Of a stretch of DNA of 41,879 bases, positions 2,395 to 13,600 are shown one piece after another; positions within the stretch are counted from its first letter, which is position 1; every line of letters starts with the position of its first letter. The stretch lies in the NCBI GenBank assembly GCA_031268095.1, contig JAIRXU010000006.1, positions 1 to 41,879 of the forward strand. The letters are read 5' to 3'. Under the pieces are notes generated by a model. The model did not search any database and was not told the origin of the DNA. It was given only the letters and a program-made list of their open reading frames with translations. The position numbers and the translations under genes are program-made. The DNA comes from Oscillospiraceae bacterium (lineage in GTDB: Bacteria; Bacillota; Clostridia; Oscillospirales; Acutalibacteraceae).

Positions 2395-4116
2395 TTATAA
2401 ACTTTCGTTCTTCTTTTCCAGCGTCAAACTAAGTGGCTTGTCTTGCTCAATGGTATTCTGCTGAACAAAATCCATCACCCGCAAATACTGGTCGCTGAAA
2501 TTAAATTCAATTTTTACTGATTTATCCTCATCGACATATATCCTGTCAATCAGTTCAACAAGCATGAGCCTGTCTAATGCTTCTATGTTCTGATATTTCA
2601 GGAACCGCTCGAAATACTCATTGTTGGCTTGAACGCCTTGGGCGGCTCTTAGTTGTTCAGCCGCCAGCGTCTGCAATGTTGCCCGTATTTGTTCCAGCTT
2701 CTTTTCAGTTTCTTCCCGGATACGCTGGTACTGTTCCCTTGATATATCGCCATTTTTCCAATCATGATAACTGGCATCTAATAAATGCGTTTCTTTCTCA
2801 AATTCCCTTTGGCAATTTTCTAATAGCTGATTTATCCTTAATGACTGCCGGTTAATCTCGGGACGGTCATTGATTTCCCCAACGATAGACTGCAAATTAG
2901 CAACAAGTCCGATTTGGGCTTGGATAACGGCAAGTACAATATTTTCTAAAGCATCAAATCTGATACTCCGCTTCCTTGTGCAATGTTCTTCCCCGGCAAG
3001 TCGATACGTCCGGCACACCAAATATTCATGACCTTTGGCACCGGTTTTCTTCATAGCCATCTGGCAATTTGGACAATAAACCAAGCCCGCAAAGTGATGC
3101 ACCGTACCAGTTTTAGTCACTCTTGAACGAGTGCTTCTGATTTGCGCCACTGTTTCAAATAGTTCATCAGACACTGTTTTTTCGTTACAGCCCTCTACAA
3201 TCACATAATCCTCTTTCTTGTTTGGGATTTGTTTGTGCCTTTTATGGTCAAATGAACTGGTTTTGCCTTGTACTGAACAGCCAATATTTGTTTTGTCATT
3301 AAGAATCGCCCTGACGGTTCCGGGCCACCATAAACCGCTATTTGTATCGCCTCTTGGATGATAATATTTTAAGCCAAGTGATTTTTTATATGCGGTCGGG
3401 TTCGGAATACCCAGCGCGTTTAGCTTTTTAGCAATGCCATAATCGGAAAGTCCGCTTTTGCTCCACAGAAATATTTTTTGCTTGACCGCTCCCGCCACTG
3501 GATCATAAAGCCACGGCCCACCGTCCGGATTGGGCAAAAAACCATACGGCGGAAACCCGCCATTGGGTTCGCCGTCCTCCCTTTTGATTGCTTGAATCGC
3601 CCGCACTTTTTTAGATGTCGTTCTTGAGTAATCCTCGGCGGCATTCAAAGCCGCGTAAACCTCCGCGCTTGAAATAGCGGTCGGGTCTTTATATGTATCG
3701 ATTTCGGGAATCCCGAGCGAAACAAACCGTAATTTATGTTTGAGCACAAAATCGTCTAAGGCCTTGATACCGTCCGCAATATTTCTTGCGTAACGGTTCA
3801 AGTCCTTGACAATCATGCAATTGACCACTTTGCTGGCAATGTCCGCTTCCAATCTGACGTAATCGCTTCGGTCAAAATCTGTCCCGGTTTTGCCATCATC
3901 AATATAAATATCGACAACTCGAAAATCATCAAATTTCCTTAGTGCCCGCGCTATCAGTTTAATTTGATTGACAATGCTTAAACTGACGGATTTTTTATCA
4001 TCTTTAGAAAGTCTGACATAAATACCAATCAACCATGTCGGTTTGCCCGATGATAGCTTGTCGAACAGGTTGGCATATGCCATAAGATTGGGTTTTAAGT
4101 TGTTGTGATTATCCAT
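2395..4116 (-). CDS. Large serine recombinase (site-specific integrase)
   Basis: The 573-residue protein has the large serine recombinase architecture. A resolvase catalytic domain spans about 29-175 with the nucleophile Ser37 in Y-V-R-L-S-K-D-D, followed by a Recombinase domain (~190-310) with G-G-F-P-P-Y-G-F. A zinc ribbon begins at C-P-N-C near 350 with further Cys pairs in V-C-R-T-Y and H-C-T-R-K, then a long coiled coil (~410-500) and a beta-rich C-terminus. Such enzymes integrate and excise phages and conjugative or mobilizable elements. The ribosome site GAGGAG precedes the ATG. It is the last gene of a minus-strand run of four and lies near the left edge of the element-like region, where such integrases usually sit; the attachment core was not identified. 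Confidence 0.93.
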   Translation of the reverse strand: MDNHNNLKPNLMAYANLFDKLSSGKPTWLIGIYVRLSKDDKKSVSLSIVNQIKLIARALRKFDDFRVVDIYIDDGKTGTDFDRSDYVRLEADIASKVVNCMIVKDLNRYARNIADGIKALDDFVLKHKLRFVSLGIPEIDTYKDPTAISSAEVYAALNAAEDYSRTTSKKVRAIQAIKREDGEPNGGFPPYGFLPNPDGGPWLYDPVAGAVKQKIFLWSKSGLSDYGIAKKLNALGIPNPTAYKKSLGLKYYHPRGDTNSGLWWPGTVRAILNDKTNIGCSVQGKTSSFDHKRHKQIPNKKEDYVIVEGCNEKTVSDELFETVAQIRSTRSRVTKTGTVHHFAGLVYCPNCQMAMKKTGAKGHEYLVCRTYRLAGEEHCTRKRSIRFDALENIVLAVIQAQIGLVANLQSIVGEINDRPEINRQSLRINQLLENCQREFEKETHLLDASYHDWKNGDISREQYQRIREETEKKLEQIRATLQTLAAEQLRAAQGVQANNEYFERFLKYQNIEALDRLMLVELIDRIYVDEDKSVKIEFNFSDQYLRVMDFVQQNTIEQDKPLSLTLEKKNESL

Positions 4117-4152
4117 GTTTCTCCTCTCTTGAATAACTCACAACCACAATAA

Positions 4153-4419
4153 CTACATTTTATCATAATTGCTCCGATTCGTTAAGTAGTTATTTAGTGC
4201 TTCGTCAAGGGTTCTCGTATTAGAAAATGAAACTTGCACCAGCGTTCCATACACTTTGAAGCAGTATGGATTGCCGATTTGGCATAAAAAAAGCTTTAAT
4301 CGTTCTTGCACCGGCAAGTCCGAATAAAGCTTGACTTCTGTTAGTTCTTGTAAGTCGCTTGGATTTACATCTTCTATGCTTAAGGCTCTTAATCGCTCTA
4401 GTTCTTGTCTTGAAATCAA
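4153..4419 (-). CDS. Small DUF6870-like protein
   Basis: The 88 residues begin with a helical R-Q-E-L-E-R-L-R-A-L segment followed by D-V-N-P-S-D-L, then L-P-V-Q-E-R-L-K-L-F-L-C-Q-I-G-N-P-Y-C-F. The phrase I-x-N-P-Y-C-F followed by a strand and a short helix is what I associate with DUF6870 proteins in Firmicutes mobile elements; function unknown. The start is TTG, supported by a GGGGG ribosome sequence about 10 bases upstream. It sits 36 bases before the integrase gene, so it is probably co-transcribed and might modulate recombination (inference). Confidence 0.6.
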   Translation of the reverse strand: MISRQELERLRALSIEDVNPSDLQELTEVKLYSDLPVQERLKLFLCQIGNPYCFKVYGTLVQVSFSNTRTLDEALNNYLTNRSNYDKM

Positions 4420-4458
4420 TATCCCAGCCCCCTTACATAAGCATTTCGTGGTTGCGTT

Positions 4459-4746
4459 CTACTTATATTCGGGCTTGCTTGCATTCATGCCTTCATTTCT
4501 TGCGAATTCCAGGTCAAAACGTAAATCATTTAACTTTAAGTACAAGGCTTTTGTTGCCTTATAATTGGTATTTTTACCGCTTTTGACATAATTCATTAAA
4601 ATGCCAATTAGTTCCTCAACAAAGACAGGCTGGATTAGCCCGTGTTCAATCTTGCTTTCTTCCTCTGCGGTTACAGATGTATTTAATATCTCACATTCAA
4701 ACAAAAATTCGATGATTTCATTCAACAATTCTTTCTTATCGTTCAT
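4459..4746 (-). CDS. Small acidic helical protein, unknown
   Basis: The product has 95 residues, mostly helical and acidic at the N-terminus (M-N-D-K-K-E-L-L-N-E-I-I-E-F-L), without membrane spans or Cys motifs. A strong ribosome site (GAGGGGGAAG) precedes the ATG. It is the second gene of the run 5218-2395, 12 bases after its predecessor. No family recognised; accessory protein of the integrase module by position only. Confidence 0.6.
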   Translation of the reverse strand: MNDKKELLNEIIEFLFECEILNTSVTAEEESKIEHGLIQPVFVEELIGILMNYVKSGKNTNYKATKALYLKLNDLRFDLEFARNEGMNASKPEYK

Positions 4747-4759
4747 TTTTCTTCCCCCT

Positions 4760-5218
4760 CTAACTATTTTCTACTACTAAGCCTAGAAAGTCGGCAAATT
4801 TATAGATTGCGCTTCGCTTTAGCTTTCTAAATTCATTACTAGCACTGCTGATACAATCCACTAAATCAACAATTTCATCTTCAAACTTACGATTGATAAA
4901 GCATTCCGCAATATAGATTTGCTCTTTTTCGGACAAAATGCTTTGCGCCCAATAGTAATTTGAAAGATACTTTTTTAGCTGGGCTTCCTTGTTTTCTTTC
5001 GTCTTTAGACCGAATTCATCTTTCCCAATTGGGATAAACGGCTGCTTTTGATAGTCCGCCGCAAAATCATAATTTACGGTCAACCCTTTTTGCGCGTTGA
5101 TTTTGGCTAACTCCCAAGCCATTTTTTCTAGCTGGACAAAAAAATCGTTTACTTTTTTCTTGGTTTCTTCAAAATTAAAATTCATATTTTGTACTGATAA
5201 TAGCTTATTGCTATACAT
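4760..5218 (-). CDS. Putative sigma-70 region 4/ArpU-like regulator
   Basis: The 152-residue product has an N-terminal helical part and a C-terminal segment (about 92-150) that reads like a sigma region 4-type helix-turn-helix: L-S-E-K-E-Q-I-Y-I-A-E-C-F-I-N, then R-K-L-K-R-S-A-I-Y-K-F-A-D-F-L-G-L. Phage ArpU-type late regulators share this layout; the assignment is by pattern and is moderate. The ATG has an AAGGGGG site 7 bases upstream. It is the first gene of a run ending in the integrase, preceded by a hairpin/T-run that could be an attenuator. Confidence 0.5.
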   Translation of the reverse strand: MYSNKLLSVQNMNFNFEETKKKVNDFFVQLEKMAWELAKINAQKGLTVNYDFAADYQKQPFIPIGKDEFGLKTKENKEAQLKKYLSNYYWAQSILSEKEQIYIAECFINRKFEDEIVDLVDCISSASNEFRKLKRSAIYKFADFLGLVVENS

Positions 5219-5244
5219 TAAAAATCCCCCTTATATTTTTCTGA

Positions 5245-5282
5245 TAAAAAAGACGGCGTAAAAATACTTTTACTACCGTCTT
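5245..5282 (-). terminator. Terminator or attenuator just upstream of the 152-residue gene
   Basis: AAGACGG (5250-5256) pairs with CCGTCTT (5276-5282), with an inner GTAAAA/TTTTAC stem. On the minus strand the hairpin is followed at once by a T-run (5245-5250). The T-run ends 26 bases before the ATG at 5218, too close for a simple upstream gene end, so attenuation is plausible. Confidence 0.6.
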
Positions 5283-5411
5283 ACTACGTTTTTTATTCAC
5301 TTTAGGCTTATCGCTTCATCAAACCAACCCCCATATTTTGATTTTAAGCATTTTACCAAAAAATCATGGGATTTTCAAATTATTCGACATGTTTCACACC
5401 CTTTCAAATGC

Positions 5412-5448
5412 AAAAAAAGAACCCACTTTCCTTAAAAAGTAGGTTCTT
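5412..5448 (-). terminator. Rho-independent terminator (minus strand)
   Basis: AAGAACC (5417-5423) pairs with GGTTCTT (5442-5448), with an inner ACTTT/AAAGT stem; a run of seven T follows on the minus strand. No gene ends just upstream on this strand, so it may be a second element of a leader or the relic of a lost gene. Confidence 0.6.
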
Positions 5449-5775
5449 CTCGCCATGAGATTTATTCTCATTGTACCAATTATAGCACTTGCACCTCATA
5501 AGTAAAGCCAAAGTGTCGTTAATAAACGAAAGCTTTCGTCAATTCGCGTTATTTCGCGCAGGGGGGTTTGCCTTGTCGGGGGAAAGGTGGAGATTTTTTG
5601 CCTACAGGATTCGAGCAAAAAAATACGACCTGACCTTGACAACGGAACAGAAAATATAATTGAAACAGGGACAAAAGGCATACTTGCCCTTTGTCCCTTA
5701 ATTACCGTTTCTTATTGTTGCCATAATACCATGTTCACTCGAACAAGAAAACAGTAATCTATGCCAGCAAGTTTG
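5449..5775. other. Intergenic stretch without a convincing gene
   Basis: I see only short open frames. One plus-strand frame ends F-F-A-Y-R-I-R-A-K-K-Y-D-L-T-L-T before a stop at about 5659, which could be a gene remnant. GGGACAAA (5668-5675) pairs with TTTGTCCC (5690-5697), with extra pairing inside, but no T-run follows on either strand. Confidence 0.35.
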
Positions 5776-5808
5776 CTAATGATGAACAAAAATAGCGTTC
5801 ATCATTAG
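5776..5808. terminator. Perfect 12-bp inverted repeat at the 3' end of the pilin-like gene
   Basis: CTAATGATGAAC (5776-5787) and GTTCATCATTAG (5797-5808) are exact reverse complements around a 9-nt loop; the right arm includes the stop codon of the 5805-6641 gene. The loop carries the T-run rather than the 3' flank, so it could be an mRNA-stabilising hairpin rather than a classic terminator. Confidence 0.45.
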
Positions 5809-6641
5809 ACACAAGTAGTATATGAAGTGTCTATTATACCAAGTATAATGTTTAAAATGGTTGGTAGAAAGAACAAAATAGCAATTAAAATCAGTCGTGC
5901 CTGAAGTCTAGAACTTGCTTTTTTCAATAGTTCGGCATCACTACTAAATATTGCTCCCAAGAAATCGTATGTACTATAAATAATTACCATAAGCGGAGCA
6001 ACAAGACGAATAATTTTTAATATTCCATCTAAATCATTTTTAAAACTCCCTAATAGCCCTAAACATGTGGCATTGCTAATTTCAACTGTTCCCGCTGCGG
6101 CGTCCCTGGTCATAGGCCCTTGAAACAAATAGTAGATATAAATTACTTCATTGTAAAAATTTTTTTTACTTGAATATAGGGTTATTATATATCGGCCAGT
6201 ATTTCTATCTTGCGTTGGTTTTTTACCATAAATTTCTTTTGGACAAAAATAACTTCCATTATTATAAAAATCCTTATGATTTATCTTGTCCACGAAATCA
6301 GCATATAAGGAAGAAGATCTAGTCTGTTTTATGGTAATGCTCTCTTGATTATCAATCACATCAAAAAGAGTATTGGCTAAATATCCTTGTTTCATTTTGT
6401 TTTTGTCATAAAAGCCTAAATCAGCGTCAATTAATTCACCCGCCAATTCAGTTGCATCTGATGCTTTATCCCAAAATTCAGTCCAAATACCATGCAAAGC
6501 ATTGCTAGATTCATACTCGCTAAATAAATATCTGCAAAAGATCTCGCTTTCCCCAACATTATTAGCTCTAACTCTATTCCCGCCCAGTAAAAGAGTTGTT
6601 GCCAATAGTAACGCCATAATCAATATTTTATTTGTCCTCAT
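5805..6641 (-). CDS. Secreted/membrane protein with VirB2/TrbC-like C-terminal double helix
   Basis: From the chosen start the protein has 278 residues: a signal peptide (M-R-T-N-K-I-L-I-M-A-L-L-L-A-T-T), a long extracytoplasmic region, and two hydrophobic helices at the C-terminus separated by a charged loop (I-F-S-S-D-A-E-L-L-K-K-A-S-S-R-L). Two helices with a K-K-A-x-x-R-L loop and a final F-F-L-P-T-I-L-N-I-I-L are shared with VirB2/TrbC-type pilin-like proteins of Firmicutes conjugation modules (family knowledge; inference here). Starts at 6650 or further upstream are possible; no strong ribosome site marks one. A divergent regulator gene begins 127 bases away. Confidence 0.55.
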   Translation of the reverse strand: MRTNKILIMALLLATTLLLGGNRVRANNVGESEIFCRYLFSEYESSNALHGIWTEFWDKASDATELAGELIDADLGFYDKNKMKQGYLANTLFDVIDNQESITIKQTRSSSLYADFVDKINHKDFYNNGSYFCPKEIYGKKPTQDRNTGRYIITLYSSKKNFYNEVIYIYYLFQGPMTRDAAAGTVEISNATCLGLLGSFKNDLDGILKIIRLVAPLMVIIYSTYDFLGAIFSSDAELLKKASSRLQARLILIAILFFLPTILNIILGIIDTSYTTCV

Positions 6642-6686
6642 ATCACACATCACTATATAGAATATATCATACTTTTTCCGAAAAGT

Positions 6687-6717
6687 GTATTCAAAAGAGT
6701 ATTCAAAATATGAATAT
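6687..6717. promoter_or_regulatory. Repeated operator-like sequence between divergent genes
   Basis: GTATTCAAAA occurs twice in tandem with a 12-bp period (6687-6696 and 6699-6708), and TGAATAT follows as an inverted partial copy (6711-6717). Repeats of about one helical turn between a divergent ribbon-helix-helix gene and its neighbour fit a cooperative RHH operator. Binding is inferred only. Confidence 0.4.
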
Positions 6718-6768
6718 ATCAATAATGTGACAAAAATACTACAATTAAGATATGAAGGGTATGATTGT

Positions 6769-6966
6769 ATGCAGAAATTTCAACCGACAACACCCAAGAG
6801 CGACAAAGTTGTTATATCAATCAGATTAGAAAGCAGTAAACTAGAAGCGATTGATGCTATTGCTAGTAAGATTAGAATTAGTAGAAATGAACTCATTGGT
6901 CAATGCCTAGATTATGCTTTGAAAAACATTGATTTTGAACCAAGATCAAAATCGAAAAAATCATAA
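6769..6966 (+). CDS. Ribbon-helix-helix DNA-binding protein
   Basis: A 65-residue product. Residues ~15-50 show the RHH pattern: a strand with alternating polar residues (V-V-I-S-I-R-L), helix A (S-S-K-L-E-A-I-D-A-I-A) and helix B (S-R-N-E-L-I-G-Q-C-L-D-Y-A-L). The ATG at 6769 was chosen because GAAGGG lies 9 bases upstream and it begins just before the domain; longer in-frame starts lack a ribosome site. CopG/Arc-type regulators often control plasmid and element copy or transfer genes. It diverges from the pilin-like gene and converges on the small recombinase. Confidence 0.75.
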   Translation: MQKFQPTTPKSDKVVISIRLESSKLEAIDAIASKIRISRNELIGQCLDYALKNIDFEPRSKSKKS

Positions 6967-6998
6967 CCAACTGAAGTTTTTCTTCAGTCGGGATAGCC

Positions 6999-7622
6999 TT
7001 AATTTTGTATTTCACTAACAGCTTGACACAAGCTGTAAAAAGCACTTTTCTTTTTCCCCAACATAGCTAGGGCAATATCGAGAGCTATCTCGTCATTAAG
7101 ATACTGCCTTGCGATATTTAGTTCTTCCTTGGTTCTTACCGCTTTCGGCCTGCCGCACGGCTTACCGTTTGCTTTAGCTACCGCAATGCCCTGGGCTTGC
7201 CTTGTCTTGATTTTATGCCATTCATTTTCAGCTTGATAGGCCAGGATATGAAGCAAAATATTACGGATAAACCTTGTGAGTAAACTATTGTCTGTTTGGT
7301 CTGTATCAAGTATAGGCGTATCCAGCACTTTTATGATAACGCCTTTTTCAACGGTTAATATGTACCACTCTTTGAGTATTCCGTCATAATCACGACTTAG
7401 GCGGTCAATATTTTCTATGTACAGGGTATCGCCCTTTTTGAGTTTCTTAACTAAATTGCGATATTTTGTTCTGACAGTGCTTTTGCCACTCTCTTTTTCG
7501 ACAACAATGTTTTTTCTCTCAATGCCAAGCGCGAGCATTCGTAGTACTTGCCGTTCTTCGTTTTGCTCCTCGGTAGAAACGCGCGCTAGTCCGTAGGTTA
7601 TACTGCCTGCAATCCCTGTCAT
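6999..7622 (-). CDS. Small serine recombinase (resolvase/invertase type)
   Basis: The 207-residue protein is a complete small serine recombinase. The catalytic motif Y-G-L-A-R-V-S-T-E-E-Q places the nucleophile at Ser16; E-N-I-D-R-L-S-R-D matches the conserved I-D-R-L-S-R segment, and a long E helix leads to G-R-P-K at about 157 and a C-terminal helix-turn-helix. Length fits Tn3 resolvases and Hin/Gin invertases rather than large integrases. AAAGGGG precedes the ATG. Its upstream region holds two paired near-palindromic sites and a consensus promoter directed at this gene, so it is the obvious candidate to act on them. Confidence 0.92.
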   Translation of the reverse strand: MTGIAGSITYGLARVSTEEQNEERQVLRMLALGIERKNIVVEKESGKSTVRTKYRNLVKKLKKGDTLYIENIDRLSRDYDGILKEWYILTVEKGVIIKVLDTPILDTDQTDNSLLTRFIRNILLHILAYQAENEWHKIKTRQAQGIAVAKANGKPCGRPKAVRTKEELNIARQYLNDEIALDIALAMLGKKKSAFYSLCQAVSEIQN

Positions 7623-7668
7623 GATGGTTTACCCCTTTGATTTTTTACCACCATTATAGTAAAAAATC

Positions 7669-7704
7669 GGTATTCCGCGAAAGGTGTACCTTTTGCGGAA
7701 TACC
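7669..7704. repeat. Recombinase-site-like palindrome 1, central GT
   Basis: GGTATTCCGCGAAAGGT (7669-7685), GT (7686-7687), ACCTTTTGCGGAATACC (7688-7704). The 17-bp arms are reverse complements with one mismatch around an asymmetric 2-bp centre, the layout of serine-recombinase crossover sites. Read on the minus strand it is also a hairpin followed by GATTTTTT, so it may in addition attenuate the recombinase transcript. Confidence 0.7.
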
Positions 7705-7709
7705 TCATT

Positions 7710-7738
7710 ATTATAATCTTTCTCCTTTTTCATGTCAA
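7710..7738 (-). promoter_or_regulatory. Perfect-consensus sigma-A promoter inside the site-flanked segment
   Basis: On the minus strand TTGACA (7738-7733), a 17-bp spacer and TATAAT (7715-7710). Transcription would start near 7703, inside palindrome 1, and run to the recombinase gene at 7622. No comparable promoter is seen for the plus-strand gene at 7913. The fully consensus promoter lies between two inversely oriented sites, so inversion would turn it towards 7913. Confidence 0.8.
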
Positions 7739-7814
7739 TAGTCACTTTCAAAAACGGCAAAACGCCAGTTTATTTGTCGGAATACGAACAAAAATAGTGC
7801 ATTATGTCTAGATT

Positions 7815-7850
7815 TTTATTCCGCGAAAGGTACACCTTTGGCGGACACGT
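7815..7850. repeat. Recombinase-site-like palindrome 2, central AC (inverse of site 1)
   Basis: The left arm TTTATTCCGCGAAAGGT (7815-7831) matches the site 1 left arm at 15 of 17 positions; the centre is AC (7832-7833) and the right arm begins ACCTTTGGCGGA. Read on the minus strand the core AAAGGTGTACCTTT is identical to site 1 read on the plus strand, so the two sites are in inverted orientation, 146 bp centre to centre. A lone half-site CGGAATAC lies between them at 7778-7785. Confidence 0.7.
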
Positions 7851-7856
7851 ACAAAC

Positions 7857-7880
7857 AACTTCATAATAGCCTATGAAGTT
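7857..7880 (+). terminator. Hairpin in the leader of the 7913 gene
   Basis: AACTTCAT (7857-7864) pairs with ATGAAGTT (7873-7880), followed by TTATTTTG. It lies between palindrome 2 and the ribosome site of the 7913 gene. A weak terminator or attenuator; it would moderate read-through in either promoter orientation. Confidence 0.45.
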
Positions 7881-7912
7881 TTATTTTGCCATAAAAAGGA
7901 GTAATCGCTATA

Positions 7913-8869
7913 ATGGGAAGATTTTGTCAAAACTGCGGCGCGTCACAATCTGACACAGCTAAATTCTGCGCAAGCTGCGGAGCGCAGGTGCTTGATGTCG
8001 CTGTGCCGCTGCCAAATTATCAATCGCATTATGAGCCACAACTTCACTTACCTGTCACGGCACCTGCAAAGAAAAAGCCGCTTTATAAGCGGTGGTGGTT
8101 CTGGTTGATTGTTGTTTTTGCTGTCGGAATTATTGGCAATATTGTGCAGTTGCTTGGTGGACAAGGCGATAACGGAAATAGTTCTACTGGCAACGTTGTT
8201 TTATCCGGCTCCACCAGCACAAGCAAAACGGTCACATCTGGCAATCGCCAGCAAGTATCTCAGCAACAGGTTGAATTTGCTTTGAATGAGTATGATGTCT
8301 ATGAAAATTCGACAGTTATAATCATATCGCACAATATTAATAGCTTGATTGATAATGTCTCTTATAAAAGGACGGCTCAATATAAATATATGGATTTAGA
8401 AACTACAGGAATTGTATCATTTAAGTATAATCCAGATACTAATGAATGGCAACGATATCCCGCAGGAGATTCGATATTCACACAAGAGGAAAAATGGAAT
8501 GTGAATGGCGAATGGGTTTTCTATGAATCATTTGGCACTACTTCATCAGGCAATCAACACTTCATTGATTTCAAGATTAACATTCGTAAAATTGACCCCG
8601 ACACCCCAGAAAATTATGGTATGCTTATAGTTTGCGACGTGTTTTATAATGGGAGTTTGCATTTTGCCCTCCGAGATATATTTGAGGAGTATAGCTATAA
8701 TGCATATCTAAAAAAGGGCGAAAAGGTGGTTGGAAGACATTCTTTTGAAATCAAGGAAAATTGGCCCCACATAACAAAGCTAACGATTATTCTTGATAAA
8801 GATGAAGGTGTTAGTCTTGGTGTGAGTTCCCCAGGCAATTATAGATCTTGTCCATGTGAACGAAAATAG
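7913..8869 (+). CDS. Zinc-ribbon membrane-anchored extracytoplasmic protein
   Basis: The 318-residue product starts with a zinc ribbon (C-Q-N-C-G ... C-A-S-C-G, residues 5-25), a Pro-rich linker, then K-K-P-L-Y-K-R-W-W-F-W-L and a single membrane span (about 62-80). A Ser/Thr-rich linker leads to a ~190-residue beta-rich domain that I do not recognise. AAGGAG lies 11 bases before the ATG. The K-P-L-Y-K-R-W-W-F-W-L anchor recurs in the 10213-10461 protein. The frame ends at 8869, but a Trp-rich tail lies just beyond in the -1 frame (8860-8961), so the natural C-terminus may be longer. The gene faces a putative invertible promoter. Confidence 0.75.
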   Translation: MGRFCQNCGASQSDTAKFCASCGAQVLDVAVPLPNYQSHYEPQLHLPVTAPAKKKPLYKRWWFWLIVVFAVGIIGNIVQLLGGQGDNGNSSTGNVVLSGSTSTSKTVTSGNRQQVSQQQVEFALNEYDVYENSTVIIISHNINSLIDNVSYKRTAQYKYMDLETTGIVSFKYNPDTNEWQRYPAGDSIFTQEEKWNVNGEWVFYESFGTTSSGNQHFIDFKINIRKIDPDTPENYGMLIVCDVFYNGSLHFALRDIFEEYSYNAYLKKGEKVVGRHSFEIKENWPHITKLTIILDKDEGVSLGVSSPGNYRSCPCERK

Positions 8870-8961
8870 CAAGCCAAGAAATCATTATTGATCTTTTAAA
8901 GAAAAGATCAAGTAAAAGGAACTTATTCTTTGTCTGCTTCGGCTTTATCTGGATGTGGTAG
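8860..8961 (+). pseudogene. Out-of-frame Trp-rich C-terminal tail of the 7913 gene
   Basis: In the -1 frame relative to the preceding CDS, 33 codons end S-K-R-N-L-F-F-V-C-F-G-F-I-W-M-W-stop. Eleven residues (F-F-V-C-F-G-F-I-W-M-W) are identical to the end of the 1237-2175 protein and the DNA is nearly identical too, so this is a real relic or a real alternative C-terminus. The overlap with the main frame ends in CGAAAATAG, an A-run directly before the stop, and GATCTTTT/AAAAGATC (8890-8909) can form a hairpin downstream. Frameshift mutation is the simplest reading; programmed -1 shifting is possible but unproven. Confidence 0.6.
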
Positions 8962-8990
8962 TAAAAAAACATCCAGGCAAAACCAAACCA

Positions 8991-9034
8991 AAACCGGCAA
9001 GCGAATGAAACAACGCTTGCCGGTTTGTTTTGTT
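8991..9034. terminator. Bidirectional Rho-independent terminator
   Basis: AAACCGGCAAGCG (8991-9003) pairs perfectly with CGCTTGCCGGTTT (9014-9026), with T-rich flanks on both strands. It separates the 7913 gene and tail from the converging minus-strand gene at 9053. Confidence 0.85.
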
Positions 9035-9052
9035 CATTGCTCCCTTGCGCGG

Positions 9053-9220
9053 TTATTTCTTATCATCAATTTTCGTCTTTCCGCCACACAAGGTACAAAG
9101 AACATAACGTTCCCCTTGGCAGTGATAGCATTTATCTTTGCCGTTCAGTTTGCCAGTCGCATCGCAACGGGGGCACTTCATTTTTCCGAGACCCTTACAC
9201 TGGTGACACTGTTTCGCCAT
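9053..9220 (-). CDS. Small DnaJ-type zinc-finger protein
   Basis: The 55-residue protein consists almost only of four Cys-x-x-Cys units resembling the DnaJ central zinc domain (CxxCxGxG): C-H-Q-C-K-G-L-G, C-P-R-C-D-A-T-G, C-Y-H-C-Q-G-E-R and C-T-L-C-G-G-K-T. They would bind two zinc ions. There is no J domain, so it is a stand-alone zinc-finger module, perhaps a protein-binding adaptor. The ATG at 9220 is preferred over upstream starts because AAAGGAG lies about 9 bases before it. It follows the M48 protease gene after a terminator. Confidence 0.75.
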   Translation of the reverse strand: MAKQCHQCKGLGKMKCPRCDATGKLNGKDKCYHCQGERYVLCTLCGGKTKIDDKK

Positions 9221-9256
9221 GATGTAAAACTCCTTTAAGCAAGTAAATTTTATCGC

Positions 9257-9299
9257 AAAAACGGCAAGCATTGGTTCAGTCCATGCTTGCCGTTTTTTT
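9257..9299. terminator. Rho-independent terminator between M48 and zinc-finger genes
   Basis: ACGGCAAGCAT (9261-9271) pairs with ATGCTTGCCGT (9283-9293), flanked by A- and T-runs, so it can work on both strands. For the minus strand it lies just after the stop codon at 9303. Confidence 0.8.
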
Positions 9300-9302
9300 G
9301 GC

Positions 9303-10208
9303 CTAATAAATCACTTTCTCTAGCTGCTCAATCCGAAGCGTAATATGAGGATGGGTGGCTTTGAACTGTTCCTTTACGCTCTGCGGCTTTTCAATGGCTA
9401 TGCTGTATAGCTTGATTAAAGCACCATTGAGTTCCTTGCCAAAGCCGCTTTTAAGCGCGAAGCCATCTGCCCGATACTCATTTTGACGACTCTTGTGCAT
9501 CAAAATTAATTCCCCAATAAAATTGATAACTTTCAGCGGATAATAAAATAGCACCTTAACCAAAGTGATAAGAAACCCGCCGTTTTCATGACGATTGATA
9601 AAGTCCGTTAGCTTGCCGAAGAAAAAAGACATAAAAAAGTTGCTGACCGTCATTAATAAAACCGCTTCGGTATCGTGATGCGCAAAATGCCCCAACTCGT
9701 GCGCAATTAAGCCTTTTAAGCAATCGTCATTGAGCAACTCAACGCTGCCCCTTGTCAAAACTAGCGTGCTTTTACCAAACGCAAAAGCATTGATGCTCAT
9801 ATCTTCTTTGATATAAAGATTGATGGTTTCCGGTAAGTTTTCGGACTTTTCAAGTGCCGCAGCATAGACTTCCGCAAATAGCGGTAGTAGTCGCTCTTTT
9901 TCTGATTTTAACCGTAGCGGTCTTATCCCCGATACCCTGCGCCATAGCTTTTCGGCAACATTCGAGAAAGCAATCATTGTCGTAATAATATAAATCGGGA
10001 AAAAAGCTATAAAGAAAAAGAGATAAAATAAGTACCACGCCACATAAGCGCCATTGCCGCTCGTTCGCGCGGGATTATTAGGTCGCGATTTAGCTTGTGG
10101 CATCTGTGACGGCTGTGCTGGTGCAATCGGCACTGGTGCGCCACAGCTTGCACAAAATTTCGCAATATCAGGCAAGGACGCGCCGCAGTCTGGACAGAAC
10201 TTAGCCAT
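9303..10208 (-). CDS. Zinc-ribbon M48-family membrane metalloprotease
   Basis: The product has 301 residues from the ATG at 10208, chosen because GGAGGG lies 8 bases upstream and it begins exactly at the zinc ribbon. C-P-D-C-G ... C-A-S-C-G (residues 5-23) is followed by a membrane span (55-80). An M48 (HtpX/Ste24-like) domain carries H-E-L-G-H at 170-174, N-E-Y-R-A-D with the third ligand Glu244, and the late T-H-P-H segment near the C-terminus. Two further hydrophobic segments (about 183-200 and 212-238) are typical of the family. Such proteases act at the membrane in protein quality control or processing. A zinc ribbon fused to M48 is uncommon; it shares the module with both neighbours. 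Confidence 0.88.
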   Translation of the reverse strand: MAKFCPDCGASLPDIAKFCASCGAPVPIAPAQPSQMPQAKSRPNNPARTSGNGAYVAWYLFYLFFFIAFFPIYIITTMIAFSNVAEKLWRRVSGIRPLRLKSEKERLLPLFAEVYAAALEKSENLPETINLYIKEDMSINAFAFGKSTLVLTRGSVELLNDDCLKGLIAHELGHFAHHDTEAVLLMTVSNFFMSFFFGKLTDFINRHENGGFLITLVKVLFYYPLKVINFIGELILMHKSRQNEYRADGFALKSGFGKELNGALIKLYSIAIEKPQSVKEQFKATHPHITLRIEQLEKVIY

Positions 10209-10212
10209 GAAA

Positions 10213-10461
10213 TTACCCTCCCACGCTGTTTTCAAGCGGTATAATGACATTGACAATGATATTGGCAATTAAGCCAACAACAGCAAAGGCAATCAACCAA
10301 AACCACCATCGCTTATACAATGGTTTCTTTTGGTTAGGCGACGGTATTGGTGGCCCGGATTGTTGAATCACAAGCTCTTGTGAGGTCGCATGACCGCAGG
10401 AAATGCAAAATTTCGCGTTCGGGGTTAAGGTTGCGCCGCAGTTTTCACAAAAATTTGTCAT
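10213..10461 (-). CDS. Short zinc-ribbon single-span membrane protein
   Basis: The 82-residue product has a zinc ribbon (C-E-N-C-G ... C-I-S-C-G, residues 5-22), a linker with S-P-N-Q-K-K-P-L-Y-K-R-W-W-F-W-L, and one membrane span to the end. The linker and first turn of the span nearly match the 7913 protein, so the two are paralogues in which this one has no extracytoplasmic domain, either by truncation or as a real short form. The ribosome site AGGGGG precedes the ATG. It sits 4 bases before the M48 gene and 13 after the coupling ATPase, so all are probably one transcript. Confidence 0.75.
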   Translation of the reverse strand: MTNFCENCGATLTPNAKFCISCGHATSQELVIQQSGPPIPSPNQKKPLYKRWWFWLIAFAVVGLIANIIVNVIIPLENSVGG

Positions 10462-10474
10462 CAGTTTTATCCCC

Positions 10475-11857
10475 CTAAAATGGTTTATTTATGTTTACGC
10501 GCGTGTGAAGCATTTTATCACGCGAAACAAAAATTGCTTGCCCGGTTCCCAATAACTTAATATCGTCCGGGTGATAAAGATACTCGCGGGTTTTTCGCAG
10601 CGAACCCAAATTCGTGCTTTGCGCTTCGCCGCTCTCGCCCGTGATTTGATACGTCGCTTGCAAAGTTTCTCGGGTACCGACGACATTTGCCCAATGCTCG
10701 GCATTGACAGAGCTGTTTTGACGTAAAACAATATAGTTGTTACAATTTTCAATAACTTGCTCTGTGAACTGCTCTGACACTTGCCCCAAATCTGATAGGC
10801 TTTGCGTTGCTAAAATACAAGTTACATTCGCTGACCGCGATTTATTCACGAGGTCAAGTAACGCCCCGCTGGCATAGGTGTTAATCTCATCCATGATGTA
10901 AAAAATACGTTTTTTCTTTTCGTGGTAAAAATGACTGACGGCTTTTTTGCTGTCGATAATAATCAAATTGCCAATCAGCGGTGATGTTTCGGGATAAAGC
11001 AGCGGATTCAAGATAAACAAAATCACGGCGTTTTCCTGTAAGGCCGTGTAAATATCAATCCCGCTTTCGTCAAAGATTTTTCCCAAGTCGCTATCCCGAA
11101 TGGTCGCAAAGCGGGCAGCCGCACCCTCGGCAATTTCGCCACTGACTTTGGCTAAAGCCACATCTTCAAGGTGTTCCTCTTTGCTGATTAACTTTTTTTC
11201 GCTAATATCTTTGCTCAATTTAACAAAACTCGCTTTGGGTAAATATTGTGTCAGGCTGTCCAGCGAAATCGCAATATCCTGCATTGCCAAGAGCCGACAC
11301 AGCCGCCCAATATAGCGTTCTGTGTTGTATTTGTAGTGCGGCTCACTCCAGCTTGTCATGTTAATCAGCATATCTTTAATCACATCGGTGCTGGTGTTCT
11401 TGAACGGATTGTATTTATCGCTGGCAGTTGGGTCATTCAGATTGATCACATAAATTTTTCTATCGGGGCAAAGCTGTCTTGTCATTTCAAGGAGTGACCC
11501 TGCGTTGGTGTCGCCCTTGCCGTCAATAATTAGCATGGGATAATCAAATTGTGCGCCCGCCTGCAAAAAATTTGCCAGCGCGACGGTTTTACCGCTCCCA
11601 GTTGTACCGCAAATAAAAACGTGCTTGGCATCGCTGGGGATAAACACGTTTTTTCGGTTGGCAGTGCCAATAAATACGGATTCTTCGGCGGGCTTATAGC
11701 CCGCAAAGCGCGGCTTGTTTCGCGCTTGCTCATAGTCACGCACAAAATCAAAGACATCACTTTTATCCCGCTTGCCAAAAATCATTCGGATTAAGCCCAT
11801 AAAAACACCCCCGGTTGCTAAAATTACAACAACACCAAAAATATCAATGCCCGACAT
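10475..11857 (-). CDS. VirD4/TraG-like type IV coupling ATPase
   Basis: The 460-residue protein has an N-terminal membrane segment (about 5-25), Walker A G-T-T-G-S-G-K-T at 84-91, and Walker B I-M-D-E-I-N in the second half. The later motif A-T-Q-S-L-S-D-L corresponds to the conserved Gln-containing motif of VirD4/TraG/TrwB-type ATPases. Such coupling proteins bring the relaxosome to a conjugation channel and pump DNA. It is short for the family and lacks a large all-alpha domain insertion. Its ATG overlaps the end of the replication-relaxation gene by 14 bases, so the two are translationally linked. No VirB4 ATPase, VirB6 or relaxase was seen in the window, so the element is probably mobilizable rather than self-transmissible, or the rest has been lost. 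Confidence 0.85.
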   Translation of the reverse strand: MSGIDIFGVVVILATGGVFMGLIRMIFGKRDKSDVFDFVRDYEQARNKPRFAGYKPAEESVFIGTANRKNVFIPSDAKHVFICGTTGSGKTVALANFLQAGAQFDYPMLIIDGKGDTNAGSLLEMTRQLCPDRKIYVINLNDPTASDKYNPFKNTSTDVIKDMLINMTSWSEPHYKYNTERYIGRLCRLLAMQDIAISLDSLTQYLPKASFVKLSKDISEKKLISKEEHLEDVALAKVSGEIAEGAAARFATIRDSDLGKIFDESGIDIYTALQENAVILFILNPLLYPETSPLIGNLIIIDSKKAVSHFYHEKKKRIFYIMDEINTYASGALLDLVNKSRSANVTCILATQSLSDLGQVSEQFTEQVIENCNNYIVLRQNSSVNAEHWANVVGTRETLQATYQITGESGEAQSTNLGSLRKTREYLYHPDDIKLLGTGQAIFVSRDKMLHTRVNINKPF

Positions 11858-12485
11858 ATGCCAAAACGTCCTCTAACTGCCAAACTTCAATGTTGGAGTA
11901 TTCACCAGCAAAAATTTGCAGCAATGATTTTACTTTGCTGTTGTTCGTAATCCAAATTTGCTTATCATACTTTAAGTAGTTTTCTCTAATGTTTTCTTCC
12001 ATGCGGTCTTTTGGCTTGGGGCTTAGCTCAATTTCAACGGCAATGCGCTTACTATAATCATTTGCATTCACGACAAAATCCGGCTGATGCTTTCTGATGC
12101 CAAAGCCATCCCTAATATGTAGTTCTTTTTCGCTCTCAATCTTCGCAAAGGAAACACCATGCTTTAGGCAAAAGAAAACAACCGCGTCTAGAACATGGGT
12201 GTCATGGGCAATACGATCAACGCGGATTTTATCCTCGCGCTTGCTTACCCCGAGCAAAACCCGCCCCTTGTGACTTAGCGTATACAAATACGGGATGCCA
12301 TACAAGTATTTTTTTCTGGTCAGATAACCCGCTTCAAACAGCTTTTTTAATCTGCGGTCGGTAGCTCTGGCACCCTCGAACCCGCACAGCGTTTTAATAT
12401 GCCGCCCCAAGCAAAACCGGAAACGGTGGACTAACCGCAAAATTTCTAAATCCCGCGTTTGTAGCTCTAAACCTTTCGCACTCAA
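11844..12485 (-). CDS. Replication-relaxation (Replic_Relax) family protein
   Basis: The product is 213 residues. The N-terminal half is a winged helix (R-D-L-E-I-L-R-L-V-H-R-F-R-F, then the wing Y-L-Y-T-L-S-H-K-G). The C-terminal half carries K-H-Q-P-D-F-V-V and I-A-V-E-I-E-L-S ... K, spaced like the D / ExE / K residues of a PD-(D/E)XK nuclease-like fold. Replic_Relax proteins are found on Firmicutes plasmids and integrative elements beside coupling proteins and are thought to act in relaxation at the transfer or replication origin. The start is TTG at 12485, supported by AAGGGGGG six bases upstream. The upstream region contains a perfect 19-bp inverted repeat. Confidence 0.75.
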   Translation of the reverse strand: MSAKGLELQTRDLEILRLVHRFRFCLGRHIKTLCGFEGARATDRRLKKLFEAGYLTRKKYLYGIPYLYTLSHKGRVLLGVSKREDKIRVDRIAHDTHVLDAVVFFCLKHGVSFAKIESEKELHIRDGFGIRKHQPDFVVNANDYSKRIAVEIELSPKPKDRMEENIRENYLKYDKQIWITNNSKVKSLLQIFAGEYSNIEVWQLEDVLAYVGH

Positions 12486-12612
12486 AAAATCCCCCCTTAC
12501 TTTCTTTACTTACCTACACACTCCCTATCTATCCACTCTCTACACTCACACACTACCTACCAACCACCGCCCACCTTACAACACAGCACAACAAACAGAA
12601 TAATTCTCACGT
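12486..12612. other. C/A/T-rich tract lacking G, upstream of the Replic_Relax gene
   Basis: About 110 bases of the plus strand contain almost no G (CACTCC, CTATCTATCC, CTCTACACTC). Strand asymmetry of this sort is seen at some replication and transfer origins, but no iterons are evident. No gene seen. Confidence 0.35.
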
Positions 12613-12670
12613 TGTGAAAGAGGGGTCACGGGTCTTTTTGCATAAAAATAGCCGTGACCCCTCTTTCACA
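12613..12670. repeat. Perfect 19-bp inverted repeat, candidate oriT or terminator
   Basis: TGTGAAAGAGGGGTCACGG (12613-12631) and CCGTGACCCCTCTTTCACA (12652-12670) are exact reverse complements around a 20-nt loop that begins GTCTTTTTGC. Long perfect repeats beside a relaxation-type gene are typical of oriT regions. The T- and A-rich loop is not followed by a T-run outside the stem, so it is not a standard terminator. Confidence 0.55.
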
Positions 12671-12854
12671 CAAGCCAAAATTCTGCTTCAAAGTGTTGTG
12701 GCGTAAGGGTTTTGGGCGGTGGTTGCTTTCTAGTCCATCTTTATGCGCCCTGCGGTGTCATTAGAACAGGGTTGGTTTTGACGCGCAGGAATAGGGTGGC
12801 AGTGGGACAGGCAAAGAAAAACCAAGCGTTTAAGCTTGGCTTGGATAATTTATT
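12671..12854. other. Intergenic stretch with a short hairpin
   Basis: No gene with a ribosome site. CCAAGC (12822-12827) and GCTTGG (12834-12839) form a small hairpin whose minus-strand flank is TTTTTC, a possible weak minus-strand terminator. A plus-strand frame across 12845-12890 encodes an aromatic-rich stretch (L-L-W-L-W-F-F-F-G-L-V-Y) that may be a decayed copy of the Trp-rich tail. Confidence 0.35.
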
Positions 12855-13600
12855 GTGGTTGTGGTTTTTCTTTGGTTTGGTATATGGCTTAGCGGATATA
12901 CCACCAATCCATCAACCCATACAAACTGCCATCCACAAAATTTGTCTAGCGGAATCCAGATAAAAGTGAATTCCGCAAGTGGTAACACCATGCAAGTGGA
13001 AGTGGGTACAGCTGTCACCGTAACCTACACGGCAAGCCAGACGGGGGGCGCGAGCGGTACGGCCAACTCGACGGGGATCGAGCTGACCTTCAACGAGTCG
13101 GTGACGGGACTGACGGCGGGCGACATCACGATGACGAACGATACCGGCGCCGCCGTAAAAGGCGCGCTGAGCGGCTCGGGCACGACTTGGACGATCGCGC
13201 TTTTCCGAGTGGGCGCGCAGGGGAACGTCACGGTGAGCGTGGCCAACTTTGGCACCTACGTCGTGAACACCCCCCCGCTGCCCGTGGCGATTTACAAAGG
13301 GCCATCCAATCCGGTGAAGTTCGCCAATCCATCCTACACCGTGATTTACAGGCAAACGACGCAGCTTAACGCTTCCGGCACAGGCTTGACCTGCGAATCC
13401 GACAATCCGCGGATTCAGGTCGACGAAAAAGGAAAAATCACATCCGTGAAAGCGCCTGCCTTCTCCTTCAATAGGCGTCAGAGCGCGACCATTACCGTCA
13501 CCGACGGCGAGAGCAGCGACACCTGCGCACGGTGAGCGTCACCTACGCCTGGTGGCAGTGGCTGATCCTGATCTTCCTGTTTGGCTGGCTCTGGTATTGA
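12855..13600 (+). pseudogene. 3' part of an Ig-like domain surface protein, frameshifted before its Trp-rich tail
   Basis: The frame 12855-13535 contains a bacterial Ig-like repeat from about 13010 (S-T-G-I-E-L-T-F-N-E-S-V-T-G-L, then G-N-V-T-V-S-V-A-N-F-G-T), followed by a Big_2-type domain (I-Q-V-D-E-K-G-K-I-T-S-V). It then stops at 13535; in the -1 frame the sequence continues T-V-S-V-T-Y-A and ends W-W-Q-W-L-I-L-I-F-L-F-G-W-L-W-Y-stop at 13600. Restoring one base before 13530 would join them. The first ~150 bases are AT-rich and encode no recognisable domain, whereas the Ig part is GC-rich like the host, so the gene was probably cut by insertion of the element at about 12,990-13,040. The start coordinate is only the open frame limit. 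Confidence 0.65.

Follow-up and report, generated by a model that had tools for sequence, protein, structure and literature searches.

A small serine recombinase gene and a zinc-ribbon gene flank a segment that very probably acts as a compact invertible-promoter switch, in which the recombinase would flip a promoter between its own gene and the zinc-ribbon gene. The segment lies in the window, i.e. the whole stretch of 41,879 nucleotides that was analysed. The initial annotation had proposed an invertible promoter under the control of the adjacent serine recombinase, and two results lent support to it: the segment is reversed in a second locus of the same genome, on contig 53 (C53), and the 2-bp centres of the paired sites are complementary in six out of six loci. 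The features of the switch in the window are, by position:

6999..7622, minus strand: small serine recombinase of 207 aa, presumed invertase (PF00239, E 7.7e-22; motifs RVST with S16, and IDRLSRD)
7653..7658, minus strand: TATAAT beyond the invertible segment, at a distance of 15 nt to the site 1 core; its -35 element would fall in the arm of site 1
7674..7699, plus strand: recombination site 1, 26-bp core (12+2+12), centre GT at 7686-7687; full palindrome 7669-7704
7700..7819, no strand: inner part of the invertible region, 120 bp, in C53 opposite in orientation to the other loci
7710..7738, minus strand: promoter TTGACA-17-TATAAT, 12/12 consensus, now facing the recombinase gene
7820..7845, plus strand: recombination site 2, 26-bp core (12+2+12), centre AC at 7832-7833, one arm mismatch
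7857..7888, plus strand: weak hairpin with T-run located after site 2 and before the downstream gene, ACTTCATA-loop-TATGAAGTTTTATTTT; putative attenuator or insulator
7913..8869, plus strand: zinc-ribbon protein of 318 aa with one apparent membrane segment, assigned by eye (PF13240, E 3.8e-7); ribosome-binding site near 7896-7901

Site pair and promoter in the window

The core of site 1 reads TCCGCGAAAGGT-GT-ACCTTTTGCGGA and that of site 2 TCCGCGAAAGGT-AC-ACCTTTGGCGGA, with a spacing of 146 bp between the two inverted sites. Both had been described as near-palindromes with 17-bp arms around a 2-bp centre. The description applied to site 1 with one mismatched arm position, but not to site 2, where 11 of the 17 arm positions pair and only the 12-bp arms pair well. 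The inverted orientation with complementary centres was confirmed. A repeat search yielded a 29-nt inverted repeat pair that is 93% complementary, and the centres are GT and AC. The site pattern matched these two sites only in the window, with no match in 100 shuffles. A generalised site with up to one mismatch was found at four places in the 2.56-Mb genome, i.e. the pair of the window and a pair on C53. At two mismatches there were 11 matches compared to 12 for a reversed control pattern, which is chance level.

The promoter between the sites runs on the minus strand from 7738 to 7710 and agrees with the consensus at 12 out of 12 positions. As annotated, it faces the recombinase. The additional claim that the zinc-ribbon gene lacks a visible promoter was nearly right. 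A TTGCCA-17-TATAAT match (11/12) is present at 7886-7914 and overlaps the start codon; it is probably a chance match, and RNA from it would begin inside the zinc-ribbon gene. The TATAAT at 7653-7658 is a candidate for a weak private promoter of the recombinase.

Related loci

Relatives were sought with the recombinase in 1445 genomes, counting repeats and searches of the own genome, at cut-offs from 1e-30 to 1e-50. Besides the window the switch loci comprise C53 (L006) of the own genome, L007, L011 (genome G285), L042 (G450) and L054 (G928, from another family of the same class). L007 probably belongs to the same genome as G401, because the two agree in contig positions and in sites. The isolate name of L007 points to a probable origin of these Clostridia in the termite gut. 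Close relatives of the recombinase were 64-76% identical, while the other matches listed at 1e-30 reached at most 51% identity. Thus the switch clade is rare in this sample. In a plasmid collection of at least 5000 records the best place of each record was below 60% identity to the recombinase, with the best rows at about 42%. The same limit applied to the best place of each of 128 phage records, with the best row at 43.5%. In viral contigs the recombinase query retrieved one distant relative of 41% identity without a site pair; neither the exact site pattern nor a profile of five recombinases gave a match there. A degenerate site occurred as a single copy in each of two viral contigs, and among the sequences searched it was paired only at the six switch loci.

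The spacing of the sites is 146 bp in the window and C53, 147 bp in L007 and L042, and 148 bp in L011 and L054. Both sites share the half-site consensus TCCGCNAAANNT in all six loci. Strand exchange by serine recombinases occurs at the 2-bp centre. The centres are GT/AC in the window and L011, AG/CT in L054, and AT/AT in C53, L007 and L042. Through these three types the centre of site 2 is the reverse complement of the centre of site 1 in every locus, a relation that inversion demands. Complementarity was preserved in 12 of 720 reassortments among the loci, a figure that is not a probability because the loci are related. Since the centres of the window, L011 and L054 are asymmetric and the sites inverted rather than direct in all three, direct repeats, i.e. 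the layout for deletion or resolution, are excluded for these loci. The palindromic AT centres of the other half would neither enforce inversion nor bear on the question of direct versus inverted repeats.

As expected of an inverton, the inverted repeats enclose a promoter in six of six loci. Each time a TTGACA-17-TATNNT promoter is located near one end of the inner segment, and the distance from its end to the site core is 10 nt in five loci and 19 nt in L042. A TATAAT at 13-15 nt from the site core is present in all loci except L054, which has TATGCT at this place (by eye).

The recombinase clade

The catalytic residues are intact, and S16, R51, D73, R74 and R77 are invariant among the five intact recombinases. 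The recombinase of C53 (L006, G000:C53, 3157-4574) ends prematurely at about 120 aa, where pieces of a tyrosine integrase follow (PF00589, PF14659). In a tree the six switch recombinases formed one clade with a support of 100/100 against 36 other rows, which were 33 more distant relatives, Gin, Cin and the Sin/bin3 chain. A branch with a support of 99/90 put Gin, Cin and L008 on one side and the switch clade, Sin and 32 relatives on the other; because of long branches the exact placing is unsure. Long branches were seen with Sin, L008, which groups with Gin and Cin, and L040, and deep placings are unsure accordingly.

The closest solved chain by sequence was 2r0q with an E of 5.7e-20 and 75.1 bits. 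It is listed as 'Tn552 DNA-invertase bin3' and is also known as Sin. The next was the Gin-type chain 4m6f with 48.7 bits. Among the matches to solved chains, the near kin of 2r0q carry the names Sin and 'putative plasmid resolvase'. By the tree branch and the scores against solved chains the window recombinase does not belong to the Hin/Gin lineage. We regard the enzyme as a putative invertase by its sites that is closer to Sin by score and not placed with Hin/Gin.

Inverted pairs of 24 nt upstream of the recombinase were detected in four of six switch loci and in none of the 33 more distant recombinases; the scan is of limited sensitivity, as L042 and L054 were under its threshold, and for two of the 33 controls the upstream sequence was limited to 224 and 184 bases, so that the absence among the 33 counts for less than the figure suggests. 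The degenerate site was absent from all 33 more distant relatives.

The reversed copy at C53

The initial annotation had recommended a search for the inverted form in related assemblies. It was found in the genome of the window itself, where the inner segment of the C53 locus is reversed between colinear flanks. Like the site geometry, the promoter and the complementary centres of the six loci, this reversal is a direct reading of the DNA. In a BLAST of 7623-7912 against the own genome, C53 was matched on opposite strands, minus for the inner piece (E 1.2e-6) and plus for the right flank (E 4.3e-6). The comparison of the inner segments of C53 and L007, its nearest relative, gave a score of 71 in the inverted and 6.5 in the direct orientation with a shuffled maximum of 9.5. 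The inverted alignment is full-length with 97 of 119 aligned positions identical. The flanks align directly with scores of 50.5 and 21.5, the shuffle control being on the inner segment only. At either end the match between C53 and L007 reaches into the inner half-site, with identity in 117 of 146 alignment columns, which places the breakpoints of the inversion in the site cores.

When C53 was compared with all other loci, the inverted score exceeded the direct score in five of five pairs, four times above the maximum of 100 shuffles. In the 10 pairs without C53 the direct score was always the higher one. Seven of these pairs exceeded the shuffle maximum, and the three below it all involve L011. 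The inner segment of L011 rose above the shuffles with L007 only and not with the window, C53, L042 or L054.

Both orientations thus exist among related loci, C53 being reversed and the other five not, and each locus was seen in one orientation. Because its inner segment is reversed, the C53 promoter faces the zinc-ribbon genes, whereas in all five loci with an intact recombinase the promoter is aimed at the recombinase. As the sole reversed copy is a diverged paralogue with a truncated recombinase, C53 documents a past inversion. The C53 switch is probably locked with the promoter toward the zinc-ribbon genes.

Downstream genes and the surrounding element

In six of six loci a gene on the matching strand follows site 2. 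The downstream genes of the window and C53 code for zinc-ribbon proteins with an apparent membrane segment; in C53 the look-alike (by eye) of the zinc-ribbon protein of the window is the second gene downstream. L007 has Listeria-Bacteroides/InlB repeats (PF09479, E 1.9e-58), L011 and L054 have NPCBM (E 9.7e-8 and 1.6e-6), and L042 had no Pfam family with matches at chance level only. The products across the loci are zinc-ribbon membrane proteins, InlB-type repeats, NPCBM proteins and one lipoprotein, where signal peptides, lipoprotein starts and membrane segments were assigned by eye. This variety fits a switch cassette that may have been joined to different envelope proteins. A weak leader hairpin with a T-run in front of the gene is kept in all six loci with -2.9 to -7.8 kcal/mol and G-T pairs in three. 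A scan of 7000-8300 with Rfam yielded no family. In the stretch that was scanned, the loci do not share a promoter of the downstream gene itself.

The region from 2395 to 12485 has a lower GC than the DNA from 13001 onward. It is probably an integrative mobilisable or conjugative element that bears the switch and contains:

2395-4116: large serine recombinase
10475-11857: TrwB/TraD-like coupling ATPase
11844-12485: Replic_Relax protein

A comparison of 1901-2500 with 12301-13400 for att repeats of the element showed no exact repeat with a length from 10 to 20 bases, and the ends were not found in these stretches. Genes for M48 peptidases are present near the switch in the window, and sequence similarity suggests them in C53, L007 and L042 as well. 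At 9303-10268 a zinc-ribbon is joined to an M48 peptidase and 10213-10461 codes for a further zinc-ribbon protein (by eye), so that several zinc-ribbon genes cluster on the element. The C-terminus FSTKYEATPLNWILFFVCFGFIWMWF of the protein encoded by 1237-2175 is like that of the downstream gene of L007 (by eye), which possibly reflects a pool of exchangeable surface genes.

Discussion

According to the mechanism we propose, the small serine recombinase, as the presumed agent, would bind both inverted 26-bp sites and exchange strands at the 2-bp centre, and the promoter segment would flip. Flipping may be current and reversible, and expression would track the orientation. In the orientation seen here the recombinase would be transcribed and the zinc-ribbon gene would be off. 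After inversion the zinc-ribbon gene would be transcribed and the recombinase would be left without its strong promoter. The output of recombinase may be damped at three levels. Recombinase bound to the site just downstream of the transcription start would cover the start and repress its own promoter. The site 1 hairpin with its T-run in the recombinase leader would lower the output. Finally, the other state would leave the recombinase dependent on the weak private promoter at 7653-7658, whose TATAAT could support weak expression in both states. A puzzle is that a recombinase made mainly in the present state should cause the other state to accumulate, yet the five intact loci show the present state, and the recombinase of the one locus in the other state is truncated. 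This could be explained by strong damping, by a cost of the downstream protein or by the small sample.

Three other explanations for the site pair were weighed. Inversion may be rare and without a regulatory role, a by-product of the recombinase sites, while the promoter serves the recombinase alone. The uniform aim of the promoter in the five loci with an intact recombinase and the truncated recombinase of the sole reversed copy speak for this explanation. Against it stand a gene on the right strand after site 2 with a conserved leader hairpin in front in six of six loci and the lack of a conserved promoter of that gene in the scanned stretch. Moreover, the products resemble membrane, secreted or lipoproteins, in part by eye, as would fit a regulated gene. 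We consider the explanation improbable. Even less probable is a role of the palindromes as operators or accessory subsites in a res-like resolvase site for resolution of cointegrates or multimers and for repression of the enzyme's own promoter, without inversion. The listing of the kin of 2r0q as Sin and a plasmid resolvase would agree with it, and so would the position of site 1 just downstream of the promoter, as for an autoregulatory operator. On the other hand, the centres are non-palindromic in three of six loci and all three are inverted, not direct, and C53 carries the intervening segment in reverse. Furthermore, the subsites of res are uneven, and two near-equal 26-bp sites 146-148 bp apart are unlike them. 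A resolvase with a res site was rejected on account of the inverted GT/AC and AG/CT centres and the reversed C53 segment, sites in direct orientation not having been found at these loci.

The hairpins may also act in RNA, where site 1 with its T-run would be an attenuator of the recombinase and the palindromes would not be recombination sites. The RNA of site 1 folds with -15.0 to -30.1 kcal/mol across the six loci, and the longest T-run thereafter is 3 to 6. This would not explain why the segment is reversed, why there is a second site of the same core or why the centres are complementary, and we attach almost no credence to it. A pure RNA attenuator was rejected because it does not explain the reversal, but a site 1 hairpin or attenuator can coexist with inversion as an additional feature. 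A MITE was rejected as well: in the own genome the segment matched only itself and, in reverse, C53, and dispersed copies were not seen. We favor the view that the site pair belongs to an invertible-promoter switch.

The sites of Hin and Gin are palindromes of the 26-bp type with a 2-bp centre. The switch resembles Hin, Gin and Cin in its small serine recombinase and in palindromic sites in inverted orientation. It differs in that Gin and Cin fall outside the clade, although on long branches, and in that the segment is only about 146 bp and a bare promoter is flipped. The Mpi protein of Bacteroides fragilis is described as a serine recombinase that inverts promoter segments for surface products (PMC5903667, PMC4747536). 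Mpi is a master enzyme for at least 13 scattered regions, whereas the genome here contains no more than two site pairs at up to one mismatch, one in the window and one at C53. The NCBIfam model of Mpi scored 32.4 bits with the window recombinase at a cut-off of 272, which does not mark it as a master invertase. Across the own genome the model had nine matches below the cut-off, and the window recombinase ranked third.

In Clostridium difficile the RecV-type switches (cwpV, flagellar) are reported to be small invertible regions that control surface genes (PMC5903667, PMC5386303, PMC2784873, PMC7446863). RecV is given there as a tyrosine-type recombinase (PMC5903667), in contrast to the serine enzyme of the switch, and is not reported there to be driven by an invertible segment. 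A PhaseFinder-type survey of gut invertons reports promoters enclosed by inverted repeats in the vicinity of invertase and surface genes; in general, the promoter of an inverton could not regulate the invertase nearby, and one potential exception was of the tyrosine type (PMC11892184). In contrast to those invertons, the serine recombinase gene stands directly before the inverton promoter here. The literature searched, i.e. titles and abstract openings with most subscription journals outside its scope, held no description of this system.

Taken together, invertible promoters and serine enzymes that flip them, such as Mpi, are already known. What is unusual is that a dedicated serine recombinase appears to be among the two targets of the promoter, which would couple switching to the supply of enzyme. 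A more general model, to which we give even chances, is that of a feedback-coupled cassette. One flipping promoter would serve by turns its own small serine recombinase and a gene for an envelope protein, and the flip toward the latter would strip the recombinase of its strong promoter and stabilise that state. Mobile elements of Clostridia would carry the cassette, consisting of recombinase, sites, promoter and leader hairpins, with various surface or membrane genes attached to it, and in each lineage sites and centres would change together. The switch would be a minimal natural toggle of about 0.3 kb plus one gene, and it provides well-defined sites for an invertase clade for which we found no description. 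It suggests mobile-element-borne phase variation of envelope proteins in Clostridia that probably live in the termite gut.
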